A DNA stretch of 64,000 nt from Gemmatimonadota bacterium (GTDB lineage: Bacteria; Gemmatimonadota; Gemmatimonadetes; Longimicrobiales; Gaopeijiaceae), in the NCBI GenBank assembly GCA_030428885.1, contig JAUIEJ010000010.1:186001-250000 (forward strand), read 5' to 3'. Every line of letters starts with the position of its first letter. Position 1 is the stretch's first letter. The notes beneath the pieces are model-generated. The model was given only the letters and a program-made list of their open reading frames with translations, searched no databases and was not told the origin of the DNA. A program made the translations under genes and the position numbers. Positions 42,385-56,313 of this stretch are shown one piece after another.

Positions 42385-43602
42385 ATGCGCCTCCTCATCG
42401 TCGATGACGACGCAGGCCTGCTGGACAGCCTGCGGCGCTACCTGCAGCGACTCCGCCCCGAGTGGGATGCGGAGTACGCCGACGACGGGGAAGCGGCCCT
42501 CCGCCTCCTGGCTCGGGGCGACGTGGACATCCTCGTCTCCGACCTGGAGATGCCCGGGATCGACGGCGCCGAACTGCTGGCCCGCACCCGGGAGTCGCAC
42601 CCGGCTACGGTGCGCATCGCCCTCTCGGGCCAGTCGAGTCGGGACATGGTGCTCAAGGTGGTGGGCCCGGCCCACCAGTACCTGGCCAAGCCCTGTGAAC
42701 CCGCCGAACTGCTGGCGGTGGTGGAGCGGGCTTGGGCTCTGCGTCAGCGGTTGGCCTCGGAAGACCTCCGGAAGGTCGTGGGCGGGGTCGACAGTCTGCC
42801 CACCCTGCCCTCCCTCTACGCCGAGATCACCCGGGCGCTGAACGGCCCCGATTCACGGCTTGCCCGCGTGGCCGAGATCGTGGAGGGCGACCCCGCCACC
42901 TCGGCCAACGTCCTGAAGCTGGTGAACTCGGCGTGGTTCGGCATGCGCAGGGAAGTGACCAACATCGGCCACGCCCTCAACCTGCTGGGGACCGACACCA
43001 TCTCGGCCCTGGTCCTGGCCCGGGGCTTCTTCCGGCAGTTCGACCAGGATACGGTGACGGCCCTGGCCATCGAGCCCCTGTGGGAGCAGAGCCTGGTCAC
43101 GCGCACGCTCGCCGTGGAACTGGCCCGGGCCGACGGCGCCGGAGCCGGCATGGAGGAACTGGCCGGTACGGCGGGGCTCCTCCACGACATCGGTCTCCTG
43201 GTCCTGGCCTCGACCTTCCCCGGGCCGTTCTCCGAGGTGGTGCGCGACGCCGACGGGTCGGCGGTGGCGCGATCGTCGCTGGAGCGGGCCCTCATCGGTG
43301 CGTCCCACGGTGAGATCGGCGCGTACCTTCTGGGCCTCTGGGGCCTCCCGGATCCCATCGTCTCGGCCGTGGCCAACCACGACACCCCCTCGGTGGACGT
43401 GGCTGCCGGGGTCGACGCCCTCACCTACGTCCACGTGGCGGCCACCCTGGTGGATCACGCCGCGGCCCTGGTCCACACGCCGGAGTCGGTGGACACGATT
43501 CCCGTGGACCGGGACTACCTGGCCGCCGTGGGCCGTCTCGAGGCCCTCCCCCAGTGGATCGACGTCGGGATGGAACATCTGGCGCCGGAACCCATGCCCT
43601 GA
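42385..43602 (+). CDS. Response regulator receiver fused to HDOD domain (1)
   Basis: The 405-residue protein has an N-terminal CheY-like receiver (residues 1-~118) with acidic triad D7-D9, phospho-acceptor D53 (DILVSDLEMPG) and K102 (LAKPCEP), then an HDOD domain (residues about 135-335). The HDOD core shows SANVLKLVNSAWFGMRREVTNIGHALNLLG and the HDIG motif in AGLLHDIGLLVLA. HDOD proteins are non-phosphodiesterase relatives of HD domains, used in signalling (often linked to motility, c-di-GMP or stress). No sensor kinase is adjacent. Its close paralogue is at 44331. Confidence 0.88.
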   Translation: MRLLIVDDDAGLLDSLRRYLQRLRPEWDAEYADDGEAALRLLARGDVDILVSDLEMPGIDGAELLARTRESHPATVRIALSGQSSRDMVLKVVGPAHQYLAKPCEPAELLAVVERAWALRQRLASEDLRKVVGGVDSLPTLPSLYAEITRALNGPDSRLARVAEIVEGDPATSANVLKLVNSAWFGMRREVTNIGHALNLLGTDTISALVLARGFFRQFDQDTVTALAIEPLWEQSLVTRTLAVELARADGAGAGMEELAGTAGLLHDIGLLVLASTFPGPFSEVVRDADGSAVARSSLERALIGASHGEIGAYLLGLWGLPDPIVSAVANHDTPSVDVAAGVDALTYVHVAATLVDHAAALVHTPESVDTIPVDRDYLAAVGRLEALPQWIDVGMEHLAPEPMP

Positions 43603-44330: not shown

Positions 44331-45548
44331 ATGATCCGGGTCCTGTTCGTCGTCGATGACGCCGATCCGCTGAACGGCACTCGACAGACCCTCGGCGAGG
44401 TTCGCCCCGAGTGGACGGTTCACCTCGCCGCCGACGCGCGGGCCGCGCTGGGCCGGCTCGACGCCGCCCTGTACGACGTGGTGGTCTGCGACATGAGCCT
44501 GACCGGCATGGGGGGCTCGGCGCTCCTCGGCCGCATCAAGGATCAGCACCCCGCCACGGTACGCGTCGCCCTCTCGGGCCGGGCCGGGCCCGAGGAGTTC
44601 CTCAAGGTCGTGGGCCCGGCGCACCAGTATCTCGCCAAACCGTGTGACACCGGCGACCTCATCACCACCATCGAGCGGTCGGTGGCCCTTCGGCGAACCC
44701 TGGCCAACGACCAACTCCTGCAGGTCGTCTCCCGGATCGAGTCTCTGCCGACCCTTCCCCAACTGTACGCCGAGATGCAGAAGGCCCTGAACGGGCCCGA
44801 CTCCAGCCTCTCCCGTGTGGCCGCGATCCTCGAGCAGGATCCGGCCATGTCGACGAACGTCCTGAAGCTGGTCAACTCGGCCTTCTTCGGCCAACGACGA
44901 CAGGTTCGGGACATCGGCCACGCCCTCAACCTCCTGGGCACCGACCACATCGCGGCGTTGGTCCTGGCCCGGGGGTTCTTCCGCCAGTTCGACTCCTACT
45001 CGGCCCGAGCACTCGAGGTCTCGCACATCTGGGAACGGAGCTTGATGGCGGGCCAGATCGCCGCGACGCTCGCGCGCGCCGACGGTGCCGGTCGCTCCAT
45101 GGAAGAGCATGCGGCCACCGCCGGATTGCTCCACGACGTGGGGATTCTCGTCCTGGCCACGACCTTTCCCCGGTATGTCGAGCTGGCCCCCAGACTGGCC
45201 GCCACCGACGCCCGGCGCTCGGAGCTCGAGACGGAGCACATCGGGGCGTCCCACGCCGAGGTCGGGGCCTATCTCCTGGGGATCTGGGGGCTACCGGACA
45301 CCATCGTCTCGGCCGTGGCGTACCACGAATCCCCCGCCCTCGAGACCCACTCGACGCTCGGGGTCCTGACCTACGTCCACGTCGCTTCGGTCATCACGGA
45401 GTTCGGCTTCCAGTTGAGCCCGGAGAGCCCGGAGTGGGACATGCTCCCCTTCGACTACGAGTACCTCGCCTCCGTGAACCGCCTGGGCGAGCTCTCGACC
45501 TGGTTGGACGCCGTTCGAACCCGAATGCAGGAGACCCAGCCCTCGTGA
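44331..45548 (+). CDS. Response regulator receiver fused to HDOD domain (2)
   Basis: This 405-residue protein is a full-length paralogue of the one at 42385 with identical architecture: receiver with D9/D10, phospho-acceptor D54 (DVVVCDMSLTG) and lysine 103 (LAKPCDT), HDOD core STNVLKLVNSAFFGQRRQVRDIGHALNLLG and HDVG in AGLLHDVGILVLA. A GGGGGAG Shine-Dalgarno precedes ATG 44331. The residues after the phospho-acceptor aspartate differ from copy 1 (MSLTGM for LEMPGI), suggesting different input partners. The copies probably arose by duplication before divergence, with the 43750 gene between them. It ends 12 bases before the split tRNA-Lys half. Confidence 0.88.
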   Translation: MIRVLFVVDDADPLNGTRQTLGEVRPEWTVHLAADARAALGRLDAALYDVVVCDMSLTGMGGSALLGRIKDQHPATVRVALSGRAGPEEFLKVVGPAHQYLAKPCDTGDLITTIERSVALRRTLANDQLLQVVSRIESLPTLPQLYAEMQKALNGPDSSLSRVAAILEQDPAMSTNVLKLVNSAFFGQRRQVRDIGHALNLLGTDHIAALVLARGFFRQFDSYSARALEVSHIWERSLMAGQIAATLARADGAGRSMEEHAATAGLLHDVGILVLATTFPRYVELAPRLAATDARRSELETEHIGASHAEVGAYLLGIWGLPDTIVSAVAYHESPALETHSTLGVLTYVHVASVITEFGFQLSPESPEWDMLPFDYEYLASVNRLGELSTWLDAVRTRMQETQPS

Positions 45549-45559
45549 CCGCGTTCCAA

Positions 45560-45606
45560 TGAGCCGGCTGGGGATCGAACCCAGGACCTACGGATTAAAA
45601 GTCCGT
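45560..45606 (-). pseudogene. 3' half of interrupted host tRNA-Lys (attL side)
   Basis: On the minus strand the sequence runs from the anticodon-stem 5' strand (ACGGA) through loop CTTTTAA, TCCGT, the T arm CTGGG..CCCAG and the acceptor strand CCGGCTC plus A. There is no 5' half here. Joined to the fragment at 53669-53707 it makes a complete 73-nt tRNA with perfect acceptor, D, anticodon and T stems. It includes the 13-bp att core (45594-45606). It is not expected to give a functional tRNA in the integrated state. Confidence 0.9.
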
Positions 45607-45638
45607 GACCCCGCGCCCGGATCTCCTGGCCTGCTGCG

Positions 45639-45699
45639 GCGTTTCGAGGTCCCGCCCCGGAAACGGTGGGTGAAACAGTGGGGCGGGACTCCGAAACGC
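45639..45699. repeat. Long imperfect inverted repeat beside attL
   Basis: Arms 45639-45658 and 45680-45699 pair at 18 of 20 positions (GCGTTTCG..CCCGCCCC with its complement), with a 21-base loop. It begins three bases past the 3' end of the surrogate tRNA on the minus strand. It could be a structured end for tRNA transcription (no T run follows) or part of the attachment site recognised by the integrase. Confidence 0.75.
45664..45687. repeat. Arm-type repeat, copy near attL (partner 53554-53577)
   Basis: CGGTGGGTGAAACAGTGGGG... (24 bases) matches 21 of 24 bases of CGGTGGGTCAAACGGTGGGA... at 53554-53577, in the same orientation. The copies lie 58 and 92 bases inside the left and right att cores. 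Repeated sites flanking the core at both ends are what tyrosine-recombinase or excisionase arm sites look like; this role is inferred. Confidence 0.55.
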
Positions 45700-45702
45700 G
45701 AG

Positions 45703-45775
45703 TGAGCCGGCTGGGGATCGAACCCAGGACCTGCTGATTAAAAGTCAGCTGCTCTGCCAGCTGAGCTACCGGCTC
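45703..45775 (-). tRNA. tRNA-Lys (UUU anticodon), surrogate copy in the element
   Basis: The minus strand folds into a complete 73-nt tRNA: acceptor GAGCCGG/CCGGCTC, D arm GCTC..GAGC, anticodon stem GCTGA/TCAGC with loop CTTTTAA (anticodon UUU), T arm CTGGG TTCGATC CCCAG and discriminator A. CCA is not encoded. Only the anticodon stem and nearby bases differ from the host tRNA; the T arm and acceptor are identical. Its 5' end lies 12 bases after the integrase stop; the stop codon TAG forms part of a TAGGTT -10-like box. It most likely replaces the host gene destroyed by insertion. Confidence 0.95.
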
Positions 45776-45787
45776 GGGCCTCATAAC

Positions 45788-46858
45788 CTAGGCCCCCTGC
45801 TTGCGATTGAGTAGTACGTCGCCAACCACCCGCGCGGCGTCGCCTCGATCCCTCTGCTTCGTGTACCGGCGCGTCATGGCCGGGGTCACGTGGCGGAGGG
45901 AGGCTTGGATCTTCGATTCGGGCACGTTCGCATCGGCCAGCATCTGCCCGTGAAGGTGCCGGAGATCGTGGAGCCGAAGGTCCGGCTTCCCGATCCGCTC
46001 GGCGGCTTCCTTGAAGTGGAGCCGGAGCGCCTTGTACCGGAACGGCGACGGGACCGCCGCCAGCACCCACGGCCACAACTCCTCATCCACGTAGATGAGG
46101 GCCGCGCTCCCAGCCGTCTTCGTGCCGGGCACCTTCACCTGGCGTGTCAGCGGGAGAAGGTGGTGCTCCTCCAGGGCGAGGTATTCCCCCACTCGGAGGC
46201 CCGTCGTGGCGAGGAAGACGATGGCGCCCCGGATCGGTTCGGCGGCCGTATCGACGAGCCGCCACAACTCGGCCGGGGTGAGGTCCGGCACGCGGGCCGG
46301 AACCTCTTGATCCCGCTTCAACCGCTTCATGACGTCGCGGCGAAAGGGGTGCAGCTTGTCCTCCTCGAGGATCATCGTGAGGAAGCGGCTGACGGCGGCC
46401 CGGAGGCGGTTCCAGTCGGACCCGCTGTTGGGCCAGCGGTCGCGGAGGCCGATCCAGTCCACGTCCCGCAGGTCGGAGACCTCCGCGCCTTCCTTGAGGA
46501 CCCCGGCGCGGCGGAGCGCCTTGAAGGACGTCTCGTAGCGCTTGCGCGTGGATTCGGCCTTCGCACTCCTGGGCACCCACTCCGCCACGGAGTCCCATAG
46601 GGGCCGGCTGAGCTCGATGCTAGCGGGAAGATGCGTGAGCTTCTTGGCGCGGAACGCCGAGTAAGCTTCGAGGGGCGAGACCCGGCCGTCCTTGATCGCT
46701 TTCAGGATCTCAAGCTTCCCGTCTTCGTAGAGCCGGGTGAGGAGGTCGTTGATCTCGCGGTGGACCTTTCTCTTACTCGTCCCGCTGGCACGGACGATCC
46801 GACCGACTCCCGCGAACTTCCGATCCAGCTTGAGTGACCTGCTTCGCTTGCCGCTCAT
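45788..46858 (-). CDS. int: Tyrosine recombinase (integrase)
   Basis: The 356-residue protein has a SAM-like core-binding domain (residues about 85-170) and a tyrosine recombinase catalytic domain with R222 (TTGLRVGEY), HDLR (H297, R300), H323 (LRHVTPAMTRRY) and nucleophile Y332. All catalytic residues are present. I chose ATG 46858, which overlaps the excisionase-like gene's stop by four bases and has GGGAGGGGAG upstream; the longer track start at 46981 adds an unrelated stretch. It sits at the left end next to the surrogate tRNA, as expected for the enzyme that integrates the element. The target, an anticodon loop, is a known but less common site class for this family. Confidence 0.95.
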   Translation of the reverse strand: MSGKRSRSLKLDRKFAGVGRIVRASGTSKRKVHREINDLLTRLYEDGKLEILKAIKDGRVSPLEAYSAFRAKKLTHLPASIELSRPLWDSVAEWVPRSAKAESTRKRYETSFKALRRAGVLKEGAEVSDLRDVDWIGLRDRWPNSGSDWNRLRAAVSRFLTMILEEDKLHPFRRDVMKRLKRDQEVPARVPDLTPAELWRLVDTAAEPIRGAIVFLATTGLRVGEYLALEEHHLLPLTRQVKVPGTKTAGSAALIYVDEELWPWVLAAVPSPFRYKALRLHFKEAAERIGKPDLRLHDLRHLHGQMLADANVPESKIQASLRHVTPAMTRRYTKQRDRGDAARVVGDVLLNRKQGA

Positions 46859-47070
46859 GGGGTCTCCCCTCCCTGATGGAAGAGGAAGTCCTCGACAGCC
46901 TCGCGACCGAAATAGCAGCGGCGACCGATCTTGATCGCGTGCGGGACGTTCTCCCGGATCCACCGCGCCGTCGGTCGGCATTCCTCGGGGAAGTACTCGT
47001 CGAGAACCTCATGCTCAGTGATGAGGCGCCCCGGAGACTTGGCCGGGACGGCACTTGGCACTACACTCAT
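46855..47070 (-). CDS. Small winged-helix excisionase-like protein
   Basis: This 71-residue ORF begins after a near-ideal AAGGAGG Shine-Dalgarno and overlaps int (ATGA). Residues 19-65 fit an AlpA/MerR-type helix-turn-helix: LITEHEVLDEYFPEECRPTARWIRENVPHAIKIGRRCYFGREAVEDFL, with the KIGRR..YF pattern of helix-turn-helix DNA-binding proteins used as excisionases. Genes of this type directly upstream of integrases usually encode the recombination directionality factor. The excisionase role is inferred from position and fold. Confidence 0.8.
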   Translation of the reverse strand: MSVVPSAVPAKSPGRLITEHEVLDEYFPEECRPTARWIRENVPHAIKIGRRCYFGREAVEDFLFHQGGETP

Positions 47071-47135
47071 AGCATCCTCCTTGGTAAGGGGATTGGAGGG
47101 GATGCCCGGATGCCGTGCAAAGCTCAGGCTCCCCG

Positions 47136-47172
47136 AAGCGGTCCCGGCCCGATGTGGCCGGGGCCGCTTTTT
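47136..47172 (+). terminator. Strong rho-independent terminator on the plus strand
   Basis: AAGCGGTCCCGGCC (47136-47149), loop CGATGT, GGCCGGGGCCGCTT (47156-47169) and a T run (TTTTTCC) form a stable GC stem with 13-14 base pairs and a U tract when read on the plus strand. On the minus strand no T run follows, so it does not end the genes on that strand. No plus-strand gene is seen upstream of it, raising the possibility of an unannotated small RNA. Confidence 0.7.
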
Positions 47173-47194
47173 CCTTTAGGGCGGAAGGCGCCCG

Positions 47195-47581
47195 CTAGTA
47201 TTCGTCGTCGTCATCCCACTCGTCGCCTTCGTCATCGTCGTCGGAATCGTCGTCGTCGAAATCGTCCTCCGCCTCCTCCTCGAAGTCGTCGTCGTCGAGG
47301 TCGTCCTCGTACTGCTCCCTCAACACCTCACGTACCTCCGCGATGGGTATCATGAGGGGCGAGGATCCTCGGACGGTCTCGAGATCCCCGTCATCGATCC
47401 AGTTGTAGATCGACCGGGTGGAGACATCCAGAATTCGCGCGGCCTCTGCTACGGTGACGTCGTGTTCCTCGTCGTAGACCTCAATCACGCGACGGTTCGG
47501 CCTCCTGGTGTCTTGGTACTCCACCTGGAATTGGCCCGTCGGCGGATTGGGCTGAAGTCGAATCCTTCGCAAAGCTGCCAT
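47195..47581 (-). CDS. HTH DNA-binding protein with a poly-acidic tail
   Basis: The 128-residue protein has an N-terminal beta-rich stretch, then a helix-turn-helix (VTVAEAARILDVSTRSIYNWIDDGDL, residues about 42-68, of the helix_turn_helix_17/excisionase-like fold), then a 35-residue acidic tail of almost only Asp, Glu and hydroxyl residues (residues about 94-128). A perfect palindrome CTTTACGTAAAG sits at 47588-47599, directly in front of the ATG, and is a good candidate autoregulatory site. Acidic tails of this kind mimic DNA or recruit RNA polymerase in some regulators; neither is shown here. It might control int or the defence genes. Confidence 0.8.
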   Translation of the reverse strand: MAALRRIRLQPNPPTGQFQVEYQDTRRPNRRVIEVYDEEHDVTVAEAARILDVSTRSIYNWIDDGDLETVRGSSPLMIPIAEVREVLREQYEDDLDDDDFEEEAEDDFDDDDSDDDDEGDEWDDDDEY

Positions 47582-47587
47582 GCGCTA

Positions 47588-47599
47588 CTTTACGTAAAG
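47588..47599. promoter_or_regulatory. Palindrome CTTTACGTAAAG before the HTH gene
   Basis: A perfect 12-base palindrome lies 7 to 18 bases in front of the HTH gene's ATG; a further GTAAA half-site follows at 47602-47606. It is AT-rich compared with surrounding DNA. I infer binding of the HTH protein encoded just downstream, an autoregulatory arrangement typical of mobile-element repressors. Confidence 0.55.
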
Positions 47600-47627
47600 C
47601 CGTAAACCTTCGCAACCCCACCAACCG

Positions 47628-48881
47628 TCAGCCGCCCGGGCTTCCGTCCAGTTCCCGGATTCGGGCCTCGAGCCAACGACCGAACACAACGGGGCGCCAT
47701 TCCTTAGCCATCCGCTCCGCGAGGTGCTGGGTCAGAACGACCCCCGTACCCACACCTGACCCCACCAATGGGTCGGCAATCAGTCCCGATCCGAGCACCC
47801 CGGTGCCCACCAACCCAAATAGCTGAAGAGCCCTCTTCCCTGAACGGGCGAACCCCGAGGCCCTTGCCACTTCATGGTGGTATGCGATCAGGGCATCCCG
47901 GTCCCGCTCGGCTTCACCTTGCAGCCAGTGCCGGAAGCGCTTCGCCCTTCTCCTTAGTTCGAGGTAGCGCTCCAGGCTCAACCGGTCCTCGTTGACCATC
48001 GTCCGCACATCCGGAAACTGGACCTCCGCCTTGAGATTCTGGATGATCTCTTGCGGCCGGCCGATGCGGCTGGAAGCCTCATAGAGCTTATCGCCAACGA
48101 GTCGACTCATGGGACTCGCCAAGAAAAGGTCTGACTGGATCAACGAAGCTGACCTCAGGAGGCGATTCGCCACTGATCCGGCTGTTATCGGCGAGCCCGG
48201 ATGGAACCGCAGTCGACTGCCAGCGATCCGCTCGATCTCTCCGAAATCAATGCCCCAGGAGATCGTGTGGCCTTCGACCGACGGGGCCACAGCCGCCCGG
48301 ATCACCGGAGGGGTTCCAAGGCCTCGGAGTCGGAACAGATCATCAACGAGGGCCTGAATAATCAGGGAGTTGCGATCCGGATCCTCATGGTCTCGCCGTG
48401 CCTCCTCAACGGCGGGGCCAAAATCCTCTGCCTTGGCCTCGATCACCTGTTCCGCGATCGCGTGCCGCAGTTGTCTCTGCTTGCGCACCCCAGGTATCAC
48501 CGGCTTGAGTGCTTGGTGGGACAAGAACCGATCAGGGAAGCTGTTGGCCTCCGCCTGCTTCTCGTCCTGAAAGTTCAAGATGAGGTAGGTGCCATCCTTC
48601 CTGACCGCCGGGCTTAGAAACCCGTACTCGTAGACCGAGAGACTCCCATCTCTGAACAACCGGAGCAGATCTTCCCAGAGTCCGCGCTCGATAAACCAAC
48701 CAAGCACTGCACGGAATTGCTCGAGATTCGAGACAGCGAAGGCGGCATGATCGTAGTAGAGCAGAGCCTCCATCAGGAGCCCCATGTCGACCCTCTTCCC
48801 CATGTCGGCTACGTCGATCGAGCTGTAGGTCCATGCCTCGATCGGAACCAGAGTCGTCCGGTGATCAGTCATTGAATTCAC
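47628..48881 (-). CDS. Unrecognised protein of the defence cluster
   Basis: The 417-residue protein starts MNSMTDHRTTLVPIEAWTYSS. It is predominantly helical with an acidic middle and charged region (HAIAEQVIEAKAEDFGPAVEEARRDHEDPDRN). A ~30-residue hydrophobic stretch (LFGLVGTGVLGSGLIADPLVGSGVGTGVVL, near residues 362-392) is followed by a charged C-terminus. The hydrophobic stretch could be a membrane-inserting segment, as in abortive-infection effectors, but this is only a possibility. G+C is lower than the flanks. The gene is 44 bases downstream of the 48926 gene on the same strand. I do not recognise the family. Confidence 0.75.
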   Translation of the reverse strand: MNSMTDHRTTLVPIEAWTYSSIDVADMGKRVDMGLLMEALLYYDHAAFAVSNLEQFRAVLGWFIERGLWEDLLRLFRDGSLSVYEYGFLSPAVRKDGTYLILNFQDEKQAEANSFPDRFLSHQALKPVIPGVRKQRQLRHAIAEQVIEAKAEDFGPAVEEARRDHEDPDRNSLIIQALVDDLFRLRGLGTPPVIRAAVAPSVEGHTISWGIDFGEIERIAGSRLRFHPGSPITAGSVANRLLRSASLIQSDLFLASPMSRLVGDKLYEASSRIGRPQEIIQNLKAEVQFPDVRTMVNEDRLSLERYLELRRRAKRFRHWLQGEAERDRDALIAYHHEVARASGFARSGKRALQLFGLVGTGVLGSGLIADPLVGSGVGTGVVLTQHLAERMAKEWRPVVFGRWLEARIRELDGSPGG

Positions 48882-48925
48882 CCGAGGCTGTGGGCCGCCG
48901 CTCGGTTTTCGTGAGGTGCCATCAG

Positions 48926-49588
48926 CTAGACGGTGCCGCAGTACGCGACCTCGCCGAGGGTCTTGCTCACAATGCCATAGCCACGCTGCTCATACAACCG
49001 AAAGATCGCATCGACTAGCTGGACTGGCACATCGCAATCACTCGCCAGCTTCCTCCCATCCAGCCACGTCCCCTCCGAGCATGAATCGACGGCTTGGACG
49101 ACTCGATCGACGCCTTGGCCCGAGCCGAAGAGACGCGCCATGTAGACGGTGAAGGTCGGATCTCTCACCCGAAGGCCAGCCACGAAGCGCCCTCCGAGAG
49201 CATGACGACCGGCAATCAGGCCGAGGGACTCCAGCTCGGCAAGGCACCGCGCGAACGTCTTATAGGCACCGGGGTCGAGCTCGACAACTCGGCTGTCGGA
49301 CTCTCGAACCTGTTCCCAGATCAGCGAAGCGACCTCCCGCATGTCCGGGTGTAGGTCCGAGAGAGGGTCTTCAAGAGCTTGAACTCGCCTCTCAAGTTCC
49401 GCGGCCGCCAACTCGTCCTCCAATTGGACCAGCCATGCGGTGAGCGGATTCGAGGCGCCCGCAACCTTCGCCAATCTCACAAACCAATCCACGGGAATCC
49501 CTCCGATCAACTGGTGCTTCCGAAAGCGGCGGAGGGGGCAGGCGGTCGAGTGACCAGCCTCGGCACAGACGGGGTGCTCCCCGTCCAT
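48926..49588 (-). CDS. Unrecognised protein with N-terminal cysteine/histidine motif
   Basis: Residues about 7-20 contain the metal-site-like pattern HPVCAEAGHSTACPLRRF, followed by helical segments (PVDWFVRLAKVAGASNPLTAWLVQLEDELAAAELERRVQALED) and a C-terminal winged-helix-like region (VQLVDAIFRLYEQRGYGIVSKTLGEVAYCGTV). I prefer ATG 49588, 11 bases after the PLD gene stop; the track start at 49651 lies inside that gene. It could be a transcription factor or an adaptor for the nuclease/methyltransferase pair. No named family. Confidence 0.65.
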   Translation of the reverse strand: MDGEHPVCAEAGHSTACPLRRFRKHQLIGGIPVDWFVRLAKVAGASNPLTAWLVQLEDELAAAELERRVQALEDPLSDLHPDMREVASLIWEQVRESDSRVVELDPGAYKTFARCLAELESLGLIAGRHALGGRFVAGLRVRDPTFTVYMARLFGSGQGVDRVVQAVDSCSEGTWLDGRKLASDCDVPVQLVDAIFRLYEQRGYGIVSKTLGEVAYCGTV

Positions 49589-49598
49589 CGGGAGCGCG

Positions 49599-50609
49599 CT
49601 ATTGCCACCCGAAGAACCTAGTCCGCGTGTGCCCCCAGGTCCCGAGTGCACTCGAACGGTTCTGCAGTTCGTCCGCCTCAGAGCCAGGTCTGACGACCCG
49701 GAGCCTAAGAGCGACTCCCCCTTCCGGCCCGCGCGACAAGACGAGGAGCCCGGTGCGTTCCTTGCGAACCCAATCGACCCCCGGCGTATCGTTTGGGATG
49801 TTCAGACGGAACATCTGGTTGTCCTCATAGAACCTCAACAGCATGTCCCGAACGACCGAATCCGCTTCGCAGAGGATCGGGAGAGTGCCGTCCCCACCGC
49901 CGACGATACGCCGGAGGACCGCGGCTGGCTCCCTCGGAATCTCAACCTGAAGCGTATGCTCGCCCGTGAAGCTCTCAAGCCCAACCCAAATCAGCGACGC
50001 GAAGTCAGCGTCGACAGCGGCGTTCGCCTCTCTCCCCGAATCCTGAATTCCCAGGCTACGTAACTCCGACGGTGCTCGACGGCGCGATTCTTCAGCAAAG
50101 AGAGCCGCATAATTGGTAAGGCTTTCGGCAGTCAGGTCGTCAGAGTGCTCCCAGATCAGATTAAACCCTTCGAGCGAACTCTGAACAATCCGTCGGTCGC
50201 CGCCGACCACGTTGGCCTCGATGTTGGTCTCCAAGGCAGATGACGTGAGGTTCGCTGAACCAACGACGGCGAATCCGGGGGCCTCGGCGTCAGCGACATC
50301 CCAGTCTCTGGCCGCGACCAGCAGCTTTGGATGGAAGATTCCGTCCTTCCGGTTTGCCGTCCGAACCGCCCATCCCGCCTCCCGAGCCAACCGGAGAGCA
50401 TTGGGGTGTGTGATGACGTGGTTGAGGCCCGCCACCATTCGCACCTGCGCCACCCGACGCCTGACAAGAAGGTCGCGCAGCCAAAGGACGCCCCCCACGG
50501 AAACGAAGGCAGACGCCACGCCAAGCACCCCGGGGGTACACTTATTCAACTCAGCCTCCACCCGTGCCTTTAGCGGCGGATCCCCGTATCCCGACACCTC
50601 AAGTCGCAC
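49599..50609 (-). CDS. PLD-family nuclease-like protein
   Basis: The 336-residue protein carries one HKD half-site: H93-x-K95 (IFHPKLLV), then VGSANLTSSALETNIEANV (residues 116-134), the G-S-x-N and distal acidic positions of the phospholipase D superfamily. PLD proteins with a single HKD motif dimerise; DNA-cleaving members include restriction enzymes of the NgoFVII type and DISARM DrmC-like proteins. It begins with a GTG six bases after the methyltransferase stop, with the Shine-Dalgarno GGAG inside that gene's end, so the two are coupled. I infer an endonuclease whose target is protected by the methyltransferase. Confidence 0.82.
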   Translation of the reverse strand: MRLEVSGYGDPPLKARVEAELNKCTPGVLGVASAFVSVGGVLWLRDLLVRRRVAQVRMVAGLNHVITHPNALRLAREAGWAVRTANRKDGIFHPKLLVAARDWDVADAEAPGFAVVGSANLTSSALETNIEANVVGGDRRIVQSSLEGFNLIWEHSDDLTAESLTNYAALFAEESRRRAPSELRSLGIQDSGREANAAVDADFASLIWVGLESFTGEHTLQVEIPREPAAVLRRIVGGGDGTLPILCEADSVVRDMLLRFYEDNQMFRLNIPNDTPGVDWVRKERTGLLVLSRGPEGGVALRLRVVRPGSEADELQNRSSALGTWGHTRTRFFGWQ

Positions 50610-50615
50610 GCGAAG

Positions 50616-52241
50616 TCACTCCTCTCCGAATGGAAGACTGACCTGCAGTCTGCTCTTGTGCTTACCCTTTCGGGCCCGCTTGAACGTCCGGCCAACCTGA
50701 CGCGCGGGCGGTGCATCCAGGGCTTGGCCACCGAGTAGCTCTTCGACCGTCACGAGTTGCATTCTGGGATGGTCGCCCCAGGGTGACCTGTAGAAGCCGG
50801 CTGAGGCAGCCTCCGCCCTCATCTTCTTTGACGGCGAATCGAGTGAGATCAATACGCCGATCTCTGCCTCTTCGCGCTCCACGACACCCCTAAGGTCACG
50901 GATGTGCTCCGCCTTCAACTTCCCTGCCTTCACCGAGATCACAATCTGGTGGGTTTCGGCGGAATCCGGGTCGTGGAAGTAGATTCTTCCGTCGACGCCT
51001 TTGTCAGCACCCTTCCGCTGGTCGGCTGGGCGGGCACCAACCAGGTCTAAGGCCCACCACTGAAACTGATAGGGGTCCTCAGCCGCCAATTCGACAGCGC
51101 CTTCAAGGGTCGTCGGCTCTCCAACAACCTCGACGTCCGGCGACTCGGGGTAGAGATCGCGAAGTCGATTGCGAATTAGTGAGATCGCGAGGTGCGTAAT
51201 GTCGATACCAATCCAATCGCGGTCGAGGGCCTGGGCCGCCGCTACGGTGGTTCCACAACCACAGAATGGGTCGAGGACCACGTCCCCCGGCTCGGTGCTC
51301 GCATTGATGATCCTCTCCAAGAGCGCCTGAGGCTTCTGAGTCGGGTATCCGAGAGCCTCATTTCCAGCGACCTGCCCGATGTCGTCCCAGTCGTCGGTGA
51401 TGGTCCTTCCGCGGGAATCGTCGAGGTACTTCTTGTATTGCGGCACCGCGCCCGGTTTCAACTGGACAACTATCCCATCTTCGTAGGCCCGCTCCATCCT
51501 CTCGCGGGTCCACCTCCACACCCTTGTGACACCAAGGAACTCGTATGTGAGGTTGGGACGGTTGTCATTAGGATTGAGCAAAGGCAGTAGCCGATACCGC
51601 CGTCCGTCGTCATCAGTGTAGCGATACGCTTTCCGCACGTACTCTGGATCATGGTCACCGAACACCGGATTGAACTTCCAGTCTTCCGACCGAGAGTACC
51701 GCAAGATGACGTCACGGCAGTTGGGGAAGTTCCTCTTAGCTAGGCTCTTCGGATTCGACCGTCGCCATGAGATCTCATTCCTGAAATTCTCCGGTCCGAA
51801 GACCGAGTCCATCAGGAGCTTGAGGTAGTGGCTCGCGGTCGTATCGCAGTGCAGGTAGATCGAACCGGTGGCCTTGAGGACCCTCCTCAGCTCGATCAGC
51901 CGCGGCGCCATCATCGAAAGGTAGGCAAGCATGTCATTGTCGCCGAGGAACTTCCGAAACGCCTGCATCATCTCGGACGGGGCACCTCCAGCCTCCACGA
52001 CCTCTTGGAACGCGGCGGCGGCGGCTTGGTCCCACCGCCAGGTATCCTCGAAAGCGTGAATCTGAGCCGGCGAGAGATCGCCGTCTCGTCCGGTGAAGAG
52101 AACGTTGTAGTCCTGGTCGGACTTGAACGGTGGATCAAGGTACACCAGATCTACCGTGGAGTCGGGGATATGCAGACGCAGGACTGCGAGGTTGTCGCCG
52201 TAGTACAGTCGATTCATGTAGCTCGGAGCGGAGCGAGTCAC
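50616..52241 (-). CDS. DNA methyltransferase fused to Mrr-like endonuclease domain
   Basis: The 541-residue protein is a beta-class DNA methyltransferase: DPPF (residues 36-39, motif IV) precedes DPFCGCGTT (324-332, motif I), with GYPTQKP near 298. The C-terminal ~150 residues contain GADKGVDGRIYF and ETHQIVISVKAGKLK, the D-G and x-V-K signatures of Mrr/PD-(D/E)xK type nuclease domains, and SPWGDHPRMQLVTVEELL. I infer N6-adenine or N4-cytosine methylation with an intramolecular nuclease module. Start could be the GTG at 52241 or the ATG at 52217 (MNRLYYGDN); no clear Shine-Dalgarno decides. It probably modifies the host DNA against the adjacent PLD nuclease. Confidence 0.9.
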   Translation of the reverse strand: MTRSAPSYMNRLYYGDNLAVLRLHIPDSTVDLVYLDPPFKSDQDYNVLFTGRDGDLSPAQIHAFEDTWRWDQAAAAAFQEVVEAGGAPSEMMQAFRKFLGDNDMLAYLSMMAPRLIELRRVLKATGSIYLHCDTTASHYLKLLMDSVFGPENFRNEISWRRSNPKSLAKRNFPNCRDVILRYSRSEDWKFNPVFGDHDPEYVRKAYRYTDDDGRRYRLLPLLNPNDNRPNLTYEFLGVTRVWRWTRERMERAYEDGIVVQLKPGAVPQYKKYLDDSRGRTITDDWDDIGQVAGNEALGYPTQKPQALLERIINASTEPGDVVLDPFCGCGTTVAAAQALDRDWIGIDITHLAISLIRNRLRDLYPESPDVEVVGEPTTLEGAVELAAEDPYQFQWWALDLVGARPADQRKGADKGVDGRIYFHDPDSAETHQIVISVKAGKLKAEHIRDLRGVVEREEAEIGVLISLDSPSKKMRAEAASAGFYRSPWGDHPRMQLVTVEELLGGQALDAPPARQVGRTFKRARKGKHKSRLQVSLPFGEE

Positions 52242-52281
52242 GGTCGGGCTCGTCGAAGATAGGATGGGTGCTTGGGTTCGT

Positions 52282-52752
52282 CTAACTCCTCCCTGACGTT
52301 GCCAGGGGCCGGAGGGCGGCTGAATGGCTCCAAAGGGCGGCCAACCTGATCAGACTCCGAGAGGCGCGAGGCTCCTCGATCTCGTAGTGGCTCAGCTCCT
52401 TCGACACGTACTTCGCCACGTAGTGCGCTGCGCCTCGCTCAGGATCGTAGGGTAGGATCTGAGCGCGCCCGAATCGGTCGTGCCAACGTTTCCAGAGAGC
52501 CTTCCGGGAGGTGAAGGGCTCCATCCCACCGAGTAGGGCGTGGAGGTGGAGGCGGCCGAAGCTCCCCACCTCATGGGCGCAGAACCAACCGAGGCCGGGC
52601 GAGTCCTTTCGTAACCACCGCGTGAACGATCCAAACGCGCGGGTGGCTGAGGCGTGGGTCCTCTCCTCGCGGAACGTCAGCGTGCACCAGGCCTGCCACG
52701 GGTAGGTCGCGAGCCAGTCCCCCCATGCCTCGTTCAAGCGTCTTGCGTCCAT
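52282..52752 (-). CDS. rep: Small HUH rolling-circle replication initiator (Rep)
   Basis: From ATG 52752 the 156-residue protein has the three HUH motifs in order: motif I CTLTFREE (residues 23-30), motif II H69-L-H71 in GRLHLHALLGG, and motif III Y111-V-A-K-Y115-V-S-K (YVAKYVSKE). This is the endonuclease core of rolling-circle Rep and of microviral/plasmid initiators; there is no helicase domain. The track ORF extends to 53640, but the upstream 296 residues are low-complexity repeats without protein character. It lies between the DNA methyltransferase and the hairpin at 52770, which is probably its origin. The tyrosine-based nicking is family knowledge. Confidence 0.8.
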   Translation of the reverse strand: MDARRLNEAWGDWLATYPWQAWCTLTFREERTHASATRAFGSFTRWLRKDSPGLGWFCAHEVGSFGRLHLHALLGGMEPFTSRKALWKRWHDRFGRAQILPYDPERGAAHYVAKYVSKELSHYEIEEPRASRSLIRLAALWSHSAALRPLATSGRS

Positions 52753-52769
52753 CGTGTCCCATCGCTCCA

Positions 52770-52812
52770 GGGCACACCGGGGGCTACAAGGATGGAAGCC
52801 CCCGGTGTGCCC
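52770..52812. repeat. Perfect 16-bp inverted repeat, candidate replication origin
   Basis: GGGCACACCGGGGGCT and its complement (52770-52785, 52797-52812) flank an 11-base loop, 18 bases before the rep ATG. In rep's own direction the loop reads TCCATCCTTGT, with a CTTG tetranucleotide resembling nick sites in pC194/phiX174-type origins (CTTG followed by A there). No T run follows, so it is not a terminator. Perfect hairpins next to rep are a standard double-strand-origin arrangement. Confidence 0.72.
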
Positions 52813-53160
52813 TTCTCGGCGGCCCTCCACCGACGCGGCAACGGAATGTCCGTCGATGCACGCGCGTTCCTCTCTCTCCGGCCTGGAGCGGCGTCCAGGG
52901 GCTGTCTCGGTCCCCTGGGCCGCCTCTCCGGCCTCTCGATCCTTCTGCGGGCGTCCCGGCCGTCCTGGCGGTCCCCGCGCGGTCGGGGCCTCGTAGGGCG
53001 CCGGGGCGCCCGCTCCCGCCCGCCCCGGGCAGTCGGACTCGATCCTCGGTCGGCGCGACCCAGCCGGGTGACGTCCGGCTCCGGAACGGTTGACGCTTCG
53101 ATCCGCTTGCGGGTGAAGGCTGACCGGGGTGCGGGTGACGCGGGTTGAAGGCGCTCGGCC

Positions 53161-53230
53161 AAGCCGGGGACAAGCCAGGGAGAAGGCGGGGGAAAGGCGG
53201 TGGGAACGCAGTGGGAAGATGGTGGGAAAC
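53161..53230. repeat. Series of ~11-base G-rich direct repeats
   Basis: Units AAGCCGGGGAC, AAGCCAGGGAG, AAGGCGGGGGA, AAGGCGGTGGGAA, CGCAGTGGGAAG and ATGGTGGGAAAC follow each other with an 11- to 13-base period, matching a helical-turn spacing. Iteron-like arrays bind replication initiators or accessory proteins. The role is inferred from position near rep. Confidence 0.55.
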
Positions 53231-53405
53231 CACCTGCCACCCCCTAGCGAATCCCTTGCTGAACCCTTGCCCGCGCCTACAGCCGCGTAGGGCCACGTCG
53301 CGGTGAGCGCGTGGAAACCCCATGCGGTGGGCGTGCGGAAACCGTGGGGAAACGCTGCGCAAAGCGTGGGGCTCGACCCGAGGGCCTGGGCACCACCTCC
53401 GCGGC

Positions 53406-53451
53406 GTGTGACGCGGCGTGTGGGCCGGTGTGTGACGCGGTGTGTGGGCCG
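53406..53451. repeat. Two 22-base tandem repeats
   Basis: GTGTGACGCGGCGTGTGGGC... (53406-53427) and GTGTGACGCGGTGTGTGGGC... (53430-53451) differ at one base and are 24 bases apart. They lie in the non-coding stretch between rep and the right att core. They could be iterons or remnants of slippage. Confidence 0.7.
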
Positions 53452-53668
53452 GGGGAGACGACGCACCCGTGCGCCCCCCTGCGACTCGATCCAGGGAAAC
53501 TCGCGACGAAGGATCGAGGCCACGTGTTCGAGGCCGTACCGGCCCTCGTCCAGCGGTGGGTCAAACGGTGGGACGGGGGGCGGCCCGGCCGGGTCTGAGC
53601 GGGATACGAAACAGCCCAGATCCGCGCCAGAACCGCACAAATCCGGGCCGTGGAGTGGCCCCGTTTGA

Positions 53669-53707
53669 ATTAAAAGTCCGTTGCTCTGCCAGCTGAGCTA
53701 CCGGCTC
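53669..53707 (-). pseudogene. 5' half of interrupted host tRNA-Lys (attR side)
   Basis: On the minus strand from 53707 the sequence gives acceptor GAGCCGG, D arm GCTC AGCTGGCAGA GAGC-type, anticodon stem strand ACGGA and loop CTTTTAA. It then stops; the following element sequence (TCAAACGGGG) does not continue a tRNA. Joined to 45560-45606 the ACGGA/TCCGT stem pairs perfectly. It contains the right att core (53669-53681). A TAGGTT box lies upstream, so the host promoter probably remains and may transcribe into the element. Confidence 0.9.
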
Positions 53708-53843
53708 TGATCGAAGGAACCTAGGGGCTCCGAGCCGTCCTGAGTAGGACCGACGGGCGGGTGTGGTCTGGACGGACGACCCGGGGCGCGTAGGATTCCC
53801 AAAGCGCGGCTCTCGAGCGCGACCGCCTTCGACCCGGACCCCC

Positions 53844-55512: not shown

Positions 55513-56313
55513 GTGTGCGACACGACCCCTCTCCAACACCGGCGGGTCCGCCGCGGATCCCCGGGGGCCGCGTGGGCGGCGGCCGCGACCGTCGTAGCCA
55601 TGGGTCCCACCCTCGCGGCCGCCCAGACCACGCCGACCTGGGAACTCGAGGTCGAGGGCGGCCCGGTCTGGCAAACCACCAACGACGTGCGGATCCCCAA
55701 CGACGCGTCGGCGACGCGGTTCTCCCTCCGGGAGCTGGCGGGCGCCGGCCCGTGGGCTGCGGGACGCGTGTACGTCACGTGGAACCTCTCCGAACGCCAC
55801 GGGCTCCGTGCCCTGGCCGCCCCCCTCACCGTGACGGGCACGGGCACGCCGGACCGGTCCATCTCGTTCGCCGGGGTCGACTACGAGGCCGGGGTGCCCG
55901 CCGACGCGACCTACACCTTCGATTCATACCGCCTCACCTACCGCTACCGGTGGCATCACGGTGCGTCGACCACGGCCTGGATCGGCTTCACCGCCAAGAT
56001 CCGGGACGCGGTGACCGCGCTGGAGCAGAGCGGACGATCGAGCCGGAAGACCAACGTGGGGTTCGTCCCGCTGCTGCATCTGGCCGGGGACTGGCGGCTG
56101 GCGCCTCGGTGGACCGCGAGCCTCGACGTCGACGCCCTGGCGGGGGGCCCGGGACGCGCCGAAGACGCCGCCGTGGAGATCGGCTACGACGTGGGCGACG
56201 CGTGGACGATCCAGGCCGGCTACCGCACCGTGGAGGGCGGCGCCGACGTGGACGAGGTCTACGCCTTCGCGTGGCTCCACTATGCCACGATGTCGGTGGT
56301 CTGGCGGCCCTGA
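55513..56313 (+). CDS. Outer-membrane-type beta-barrel protein, function unknown
   Basis: The 266-residue product has a signal peptide (RRVRRGSPGAAWAAAATVVAMGPTLAAAQ) and beta-strand-rich mature region with alternating aromatic/polar residues (YRLTYRYRWHH, TAWIGFTAKIRD, YAFAWLHYATMSVVWRP), and ends with an aromatic residue pattern near the C-terminus, fitting an outer-membrane barrel. I chose the GTG at 55513; a track start at 55456 would overlap the divergent lactamase gene. No family assigned. It could be a small porin-like or surface structural protein. Confidence 0.65.
   Translation: MCDTTPLQHRRVRRGSPGAAWAAAATVVAMGPTLAAAQTTPTWELEVEGGPVWQTTNDVRIPNDASATRFSLRELAGAGPWAAGRVYVTWNLSERHGLRALAAPLTVTGTGTPDRSISFAGVDYEAGVPADATYTFDSYRLTYRYRWHHGASTTAWIGFTAKIRDAVTALEQSGRSSRKTNVGFVPLLHLAGDWRLAPRWTASLDVDALAGGPGRAEDAAVEIGYDVGDAWTIQAGYRTVEGGADVDEVYAFAWLHYATMSVVWRP

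Follow-up and report, generated by a model that had tools for sequence, protein, structure and literature searches.

A candidate rolling-circle replication module in a small integrative element of Gemmatimonadota that splits and replaces tRNA-Lys(UUU)

The DNA analysed here (the window, a stretch of 64 kb in all) carries an integrative element of about 8.1 kb, and positions 52282-53668 are probably its replication module, with which the element would be copied by a rolling-circle mechanism after excision; we put the probability of this reading at roughly 0.8. The module combines a gene for a small HUH replication initiator (Rep), a perfect hairpin immediately in front of it and a gene-free stretch that runs to the end of the element. 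An earlier note on the same DNA had proposed a rolling-circle origin within an integrated element at 52282-53665, coordinates that are correct within a few bases. Its central idea is borne out by the HUH Rep and by a hairpin with a conserved motif resembling known nick sites, but the repeats that it counted as part of the origin are better assigned differently. The proposal also survived the two outcomes that the note had named as refuting it: the Rep model does have an HUH fold, and the nick-like motif of the hairpin recurs in front of related rep genes.

Structure of the element

The element spans 45594-53681 in its Gemmatimonadota host, the bounds being given by the att cores and by an empty site in a relative. 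The attR core, ACGGACTTTTAAT, lies at 53669-53681 (minus strand) in the anticodon stem-loop of tRNA-Lys(UUU), and an identical 13-bp attL core is found at 45594-45606 (minus strand). Fragments of tRNA-Lys(UUU) are present at both ends of the element and have this core in common. With a tyrosine integrase, att repeats and a relative that shows the empty site, the region has all the features by which integrative elements are recognised. The ends, the empty site and the split and replaced tRNA described below can be read directly from the sequence.

All genes of the element are located on the minus strand. The tyrosine recombinase (integrase; 45788-46981) retains the HxxR/H/Y pattern in its C-terminal sequence. 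It is followed by a small HTH-like open reading frame (46855-47070), a possible excisionase with a weak match (E 0.075), and by an HTH_17 protein (47195-47581) that is excisionase- or MerR-like according to Pfam and PHROGs. The next two genes encode a 417-aa protein (47628-48881) matching no family in Pfam, PHROGs, NCBIfam or PADLOC and a 241-aa protein (48926-49651) for which the same collections gave no convincing family. A PLD-like nuclease-fold protein (PLDc_2, distantly related to DrmC; 49599-50609) and an N6/N4 DNA methyltransferase with a C-terminal Mrr-like domain (50616-52241) precede rep. The tyrosine-recombinase element with a defence module described in the earlier note is thus present in the form of an integrase and restriction-type cargo. 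Beside the integration site we observed two adjacent response-regulator/HDOD-like genes (42385-43602 and 44331-45548) that are 54% identical to each other.

The Rep protein

The rep gene (52282-52752, minus strand) starts with an ATG at 52752, has its stop at 52282 and encodes a protein of 156 aa. It is an HUH Rep and a member of PF23343 (REP_ORF2-G2P), which it matches with 48.3 bits at a cut-off of 27.8; no other Pfam family appeared at E values up to 0.1. The three motifs that had been noticed before are all in place: WCTLTF represents motif I, HLH (H69/H71) motif II and YVAKYVSK (with Y111) motif III. The PHROGs matches are replication initiators, and all eight members of our core Rep alignment (A1) match PF23343. 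E61, H69, H71, Y111 and K114 are invariant in 11 aligned Rep sequences, leaving Y111 as the single conserved catalytic tyrosine. Because Y115, the second tyrosine of motif III in the window protein, varies among the relatives, this family more probably works with one tyrosine.

The structure prediction agrees with an HUH fold. An AlphaFold model computed from the 11 sequences reached a pLDDT of 84.5, and a Foldseek search of viral proteins returned 213 matches at E <= 1e-3, with E values down to 1e-9. Among the first 50 of these, the named ones were replication proteins, two of them from microviruses. Matches in the PDB were weaker (best E about 3e-3); they included the Rep domains of geminiviruses, circoviruses and nanoviruses and were intermixed with other ferredoxin-like folds. 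At the sequence level the relatives of Rep on phages and on one plasmid are distant (27-37% identity).

A conserved nick-like motif in front of rep

The candidate double-strand origin is located at 52769-52813 on the rep strand (minus). It consists of a perfect 17-bp hairpin with arms at 52769-52785 and 52797-52813 and an 11-nt loop, TCCATCCTTGT, that contains CTTG; 16 nt separate the arm from the ATG of rep. The inverted repeat is therefore perfect and has a CTTG loop, as originally described, but it is one base pair longer than the 16 bp then given and lies 16 rather than 18 nt from the gene. Its folding is clearly non-random compared with dinucleotide shuffles (z -4.9; none of 200 shuffles was as good). 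An intrinsic terminator could be dismissed, since there is no T run and the terminator scan was negative. Nor did a known RNA family account for the hairpin, as tRNAs alone reached their Rfam gathering score.

Conservation was assessed at 17 Rep loci of Gemmatimonadota, including that of the window. The loci were anchored at motif I, and hexamers on the rep strand were counted in the 340 nt preceding it. CTTGTA was the top-ranking hexamer: it occurred in 8 of the 17 regions against 0.51 expected from the same loci (p 1.3e-8, a value that assumes independence of the relatives and so holds only roughly). The second-ranked hexamer, CCTTGT, overlaps with it. Two further loci (G142 and G012) have a loop, AGACTTGAA, with CTTGAA, which is held by long-armed hairpins that are perfect in G142 and near-perfect in G012; their arms have diverged by one compensated pair (GTGGGC/GCCCAC against GGGGGC/GCCCCC). 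A third locus, G248, carries CTTGTG in place of CTTGTA. The remaining six, which mostly encode more distant Reps, possess neither CTTGTA nor an equivalent loop (G296 has CTTGAG only), so their origins either differ or were missed. Perfect hairpins are restricted to the window (G000) and G142, with the near-perfect one in G012, while elsewhere CTTGTA is found at a weak or rearranged stem. The distance between the motif and motif I also varies, from 92 to 216 nt. In the phage and plasmid Rep relatives that we retrieved, CTTG motifs revealed no clear common origin.

A strand-specific, nick-like motif before rep is thus conserved across the relatives, with stems that have diverged around it. A conserved nick site, CTTGATA, has been described for Rep_1-like proteins including the Rep of pC194 (PMC10378824), and rolling-circle origins display their nick sites in hairpins (PMC5714925). 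By analogy with these systems, the hairpin is best read as a double-strand origin with a predicted nick at CTTG^TA (the caret marks the cut). A single-strand origin was not identified in the element.

The gene-free right end

The 52814-53668 stretch, from the candidate origin to the att core at 53669 that bounds it, contains no open reading frame with coding-like codon use, in agreement with the roughly 850 gene-free bases reported earlier. G-rich units of 11-12 nt occur at 53160-53229 and 53332-53368. The tandem repeat nearby (53402-53449), thought to have a unit of 22 nt, consists of two copies of 24 nt and is possibly an excisionase site.

The distribution of one repeat motif suggests what part of the G-rich units may be. 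Exact copies of GAAACVGTGGG are found only three times in the 64 kb, at 45660 and 45672 near the left end of the element and at 53338 near the right end; a copy with one mismatch lies at 53562. All four are on the plus strand and within the end regions of the element. When up to two mismatches are allowed, the whole window contains 74 copies, no excess over the 64 ± 8 expected by chance. Other elements whose integrases are related to this one likewise carry short tandem repeats close to their two ends, though of other sequence (e.g. CCTGTGCG in L096). Because of this parallel and of the layout at both ends on one strand, the left-end pair with its 12-nt spacing (45660-45682) and the right-end copies (53338-53572) are better read as candidate arm sites of the integrase than as part of the replication origin.

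Relatives, integrases and cargo

The 17 Gemmatimonadota genomes that were followed up (the host of the window included) have one rep each and are scattered over genera, as would be expected of a mobile gene. A scan of the genome contigs with the window Rep alone found none, and with alignment A2 two genomes that were both already among the relatives. In 11 of the 17 genomes (G000, G142, G012, G082, G129, G300, G176, G065, G031, G169 and G112) a PF00589 integrase is located no more than about 6.5 kb from rep, often beside a tRNA. By chance, such proximity would be expected in about 2% of cases, an estimate based on about 7 integrases per 4 Mb. In addition to these 11, G378 has a degraded integrase near rep, and in three of the five remaining genomes (G015, G294 and G296) the contig ends no more than about 1 kb from rep. 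Repeats corresponding to att sites were found in G378 (43 nt, tRNA-Met, 5.4 kb), G300 (45 nt, tRNA-Arg, 5.05 kb) and G176 (38 nt, tRNA-Lys).

The genes near rep vary and are mostly concerned with restriction or defence. G082 has BrxC/D-like genes; G129 an OLD-like ATPase, ArdC and a type III-like Res with an endonuclease domain; G012 an MmeI-type methylase and a ResIII helicase; and G176 an Eco57I-type gene. The 5.4-kb element of G378 (L022, 2019-7456) is satellite-like: its integrase is broken, and rep has a gene for a terminase small subunit as its neighbour. The window element therefore belongs to a recurrent type of integrative element of Gemmatimonadota.

This type is not an AICE: in the element ORFs tested, Pfam detected no FtsK/SpoIIIE transfer protein and no match to RepSA, RepAM or Prim-Pol. 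The earlier claim that such a combination is rare outside AICEs was too strong, since the pairing of Rep and integrase recurs across Gemmatimonadota and rolling-circle replication is also combined with an integrase in SNJ2 (PMC13107129) and ICEBs1 (PMC5714925).

A split and replaced tRNA-Lys

The host gene for tRNA-Lys(UUU) is interrupted by the element within the anticodon loop. The 5' half, GAGCCGGTAGCTCAGCTGGCAGAGCAACGGACTTTTAAT, is located at 53669-53707 (minus strand) and is 100% identical over 39 nt to the gene of a sister species, and the 3' half is at 45560-45606 (minus strand). When rejoined, the halves are identical at 73 of 73 positions to the intact tRNA-Lys of the sister species G069, which has, at a comparable distance from the 5' side of the tRNA, an orthologue (83% identical) of the window gene at 55600-56313. 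ARAGORN calls a whole tRNA-Lys at 45560-45632, but the 5' part of this call is element DNA and only the host 3' half is really there. The orphan 5' half has kept the region upstream of it (together 53669-53760), so that transcription from its promoter may now enter the element in the direction of rep.

A complete tRNA-Lys(UUU) belonging to the element itself (71.9 bits, Rfam tRNA) is located at 45702-45775 (minus strand), between attL and the integrase. Compared with the rejoined host gene, 4 of 73 positions are changed, and they form two pairs in the anticodon stem, both of them compensated: pair 27-43 is changed from A-T to G-C and pair 29-41 from G-C to T-A, giving GCTGA/TCAGC instead of ACGGA/TCCGT. 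Because the changed pairs sit in the core used by the integrase, this copy should be a poor integrase target. The GCTGA/TCAGC stem with its flank was absent from all the others of the 121 family genomes searched. The host genome, which is 95% complete, yielded no further intact tRNA-Lys(UUU); its remaining lysine tRNA has the anticodon CTT.

It might be asked why the host gene was left broken. Where relatives of the integrase have an adjoining tRNA, integrase and tRNA are convergent, and the distal repeat, where found, spans the 3' part of the tRNA. In the window the two are codirectional. The element was therefore inserted in reverse orientation with respect to its integrase relatives, which accounts for its failure to rebuild the 3' half of the host tRNA. 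The Rep element of G176 (L044, 7501-17931) is likewise codirectional with tRNA-Lys(UUU), where it duplicates the 5' rather than the usual 3' half. A second apparent swap, in G423 (stem GCCGA/TCGGC), was rejected as an element-borne case: there is no integrase homologue nearby and the gene looks chromosomal. A stem variant can thus arise without an element, so the stem change alone is no proof of selection for immunity.

Taken together with rolling-circle replication, these observations might be explained by a tRNA-based addiction. Reversed insertion would cut the only tRNA-Lys(UUU) of the host in the anticodon loop, the recoded copy would escape the integrase, and the host would need the element to read AAA codons. 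We regard this explanation as tentative and somewhat less probable than not. In the open-access literature searched there was no pertinent report of element-borne replacement tRNAs.

Proposed replication and alternative explanations

Replication could proceed as follows. The integrase would excise the element as a circle, and Rep would cut the loop of the hairpin at CTTG^TA, on the strand that encodes rep, and remain attached to the 5' end through Tyr111. With the free 3' end as primer, host enzymes would copy the circle by the rolling-circle mechanism. The released single strand would be re-closed by Rep and then made double-stranded by the host. The outcome would be either more copies of the excised element or a single strand available for helper-mediated transfer, and the element would afterwards re-integrate in tRNA-Lys(UUU). 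Excision, nicking at this base, rolling-circle copying and any transfer between cells are inferences from the sequence.

Rep might instead be mainly a relaxase and the hairpin an oriT, so that helper conjugation moves the element as an integrative mobilizable element. Plasmid Reps of the pC194 type can indeed serve as relaxases together with a helper ICE (PMC5714925), and Pfam recognised no conjugation or coupling gene among the element ORFs, so a helper would be needed to change cells. However, the family and fold matches of Rep are replication initiators rather than relaxases, which makes a predominantly conjugative function unlikely; as an additional role it would be compatible with replication. 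We also consider it improbable that the element is a phage satellite, amplified by Rep upon infection with a helper phage and packaged in phage particles. The terminase small subunit beside rep in G378 (PF03592, E 1.6e-36) speaks for a satellite, and so do the size of 5-10 kb, the integrase, the HTH genes, the defence-like cargo and the proximity of Rep to phage Reps. Against this, a terminase is present in only 1 of 17 relatives, no terminase, capsid or recognised phage-interference gene was detected in the window element by Pfam or PHROGs, and no viral contig or phage record contained a close relative of rep or the integrase.

Two further explanations concern the state of the module. The element might be a decayed relic with non-functional rep and integrase, and broken copies of one or the other gene do occur in G300, G248, G112 and G378. 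In the window, by contrast, neither rep nor the integrase nor either att core is damaged, the integrase pattern is retained and the hairpin is perfect, so that decay appears quite unlikely. The hairpin, finally, might act as a cis-regulatory RNA or a transcription signal for rep, given its position directly before the ribosome-binding region, where stable hairpins can control translation. Yet what the relatives conserve is CTTG(T/A)A, which resembles a known nick site, while the spacing to rep is variable and a terminator T run is missing; a purely regulatory function is very unlikely. Rolling-circle copying from the hairpin thus remains our preferred reading.

Comparison with known systems

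The closest functional model is the pC194/phiX174 superfamily, with which the element shares the HUH motifs, CTTG before the predicted cut and a hairpin origin located on the strand that codes for rep. It differs in having CTTG^TA(G) rather than CTTG^ATA, in being an integrative element and in its 156-aa Rep, which belongs to PF23343 and not to Rep_1 or Phage_GPA. The best explanation of these similarities is that the element works like a pC194/phiX-type replicon residing in an integrative element. The REP_ORF2-G2P Reps of microviruses and inoviruses fall into the same Pfam family and gave the best phage matches in fold and sequence. Their identity to the window Rep is low, as stated above, and the element has an integrase-driven tRNA site and no capsid or coat genes detectable by Pfam or PHROGs, as an integrated microvirus or inovirus would have.

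Other integrated elements offer parallels in organisation. AICEs of the pSAM2 type also combine an integrase with a rolling-circle Rep (PMC3218068), but the present element lies outside Actinobacteria. ICEs of the ICEBs1 type replicate by rolling circle after excision (PMC5714925), as is predicted here from sequence; they use a Rep_trans relaxase in a conjugative element, whereas we found an HUH Rep and no recognised conjugation genes. SNJ2 and related archaeal elements (Rep-Arvir) share the integrase, the rolling-circle Rep and an adjoining hairpin origin (PMC13107129), but SNJ2 is an archaeal virus with a Rep_trans-like initiator and a hairpin downstream of rep. Satellites of the PICI type resemble our element as small integrase elements with their own replication gene, and one relative even has a terminase small subunit; the lack of terminase and recognised phage-interference genes sets the window element apart.

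Significance

The analysis points to recurrent small integrative elements in Gemmatimonadota that unite a microvirus-like Rep, a candidate CTTG^TA origin, tRNA-targeting integrases and restriction or defence cargo. We found no description of rolling-circle integrative elements of Gemmatimonadota in the open-access literature searched. The predicted nick site is short and hence open to a test with one protein and one oligonucleotide. If the proposed dependence is true, tRNA-Lys, split and replaced in this way, would clearly exemplify the supply of an essential tRNA by a mobile element. Elements of this kind may also be a route by which defence genes spread in Gemmatimonadota.
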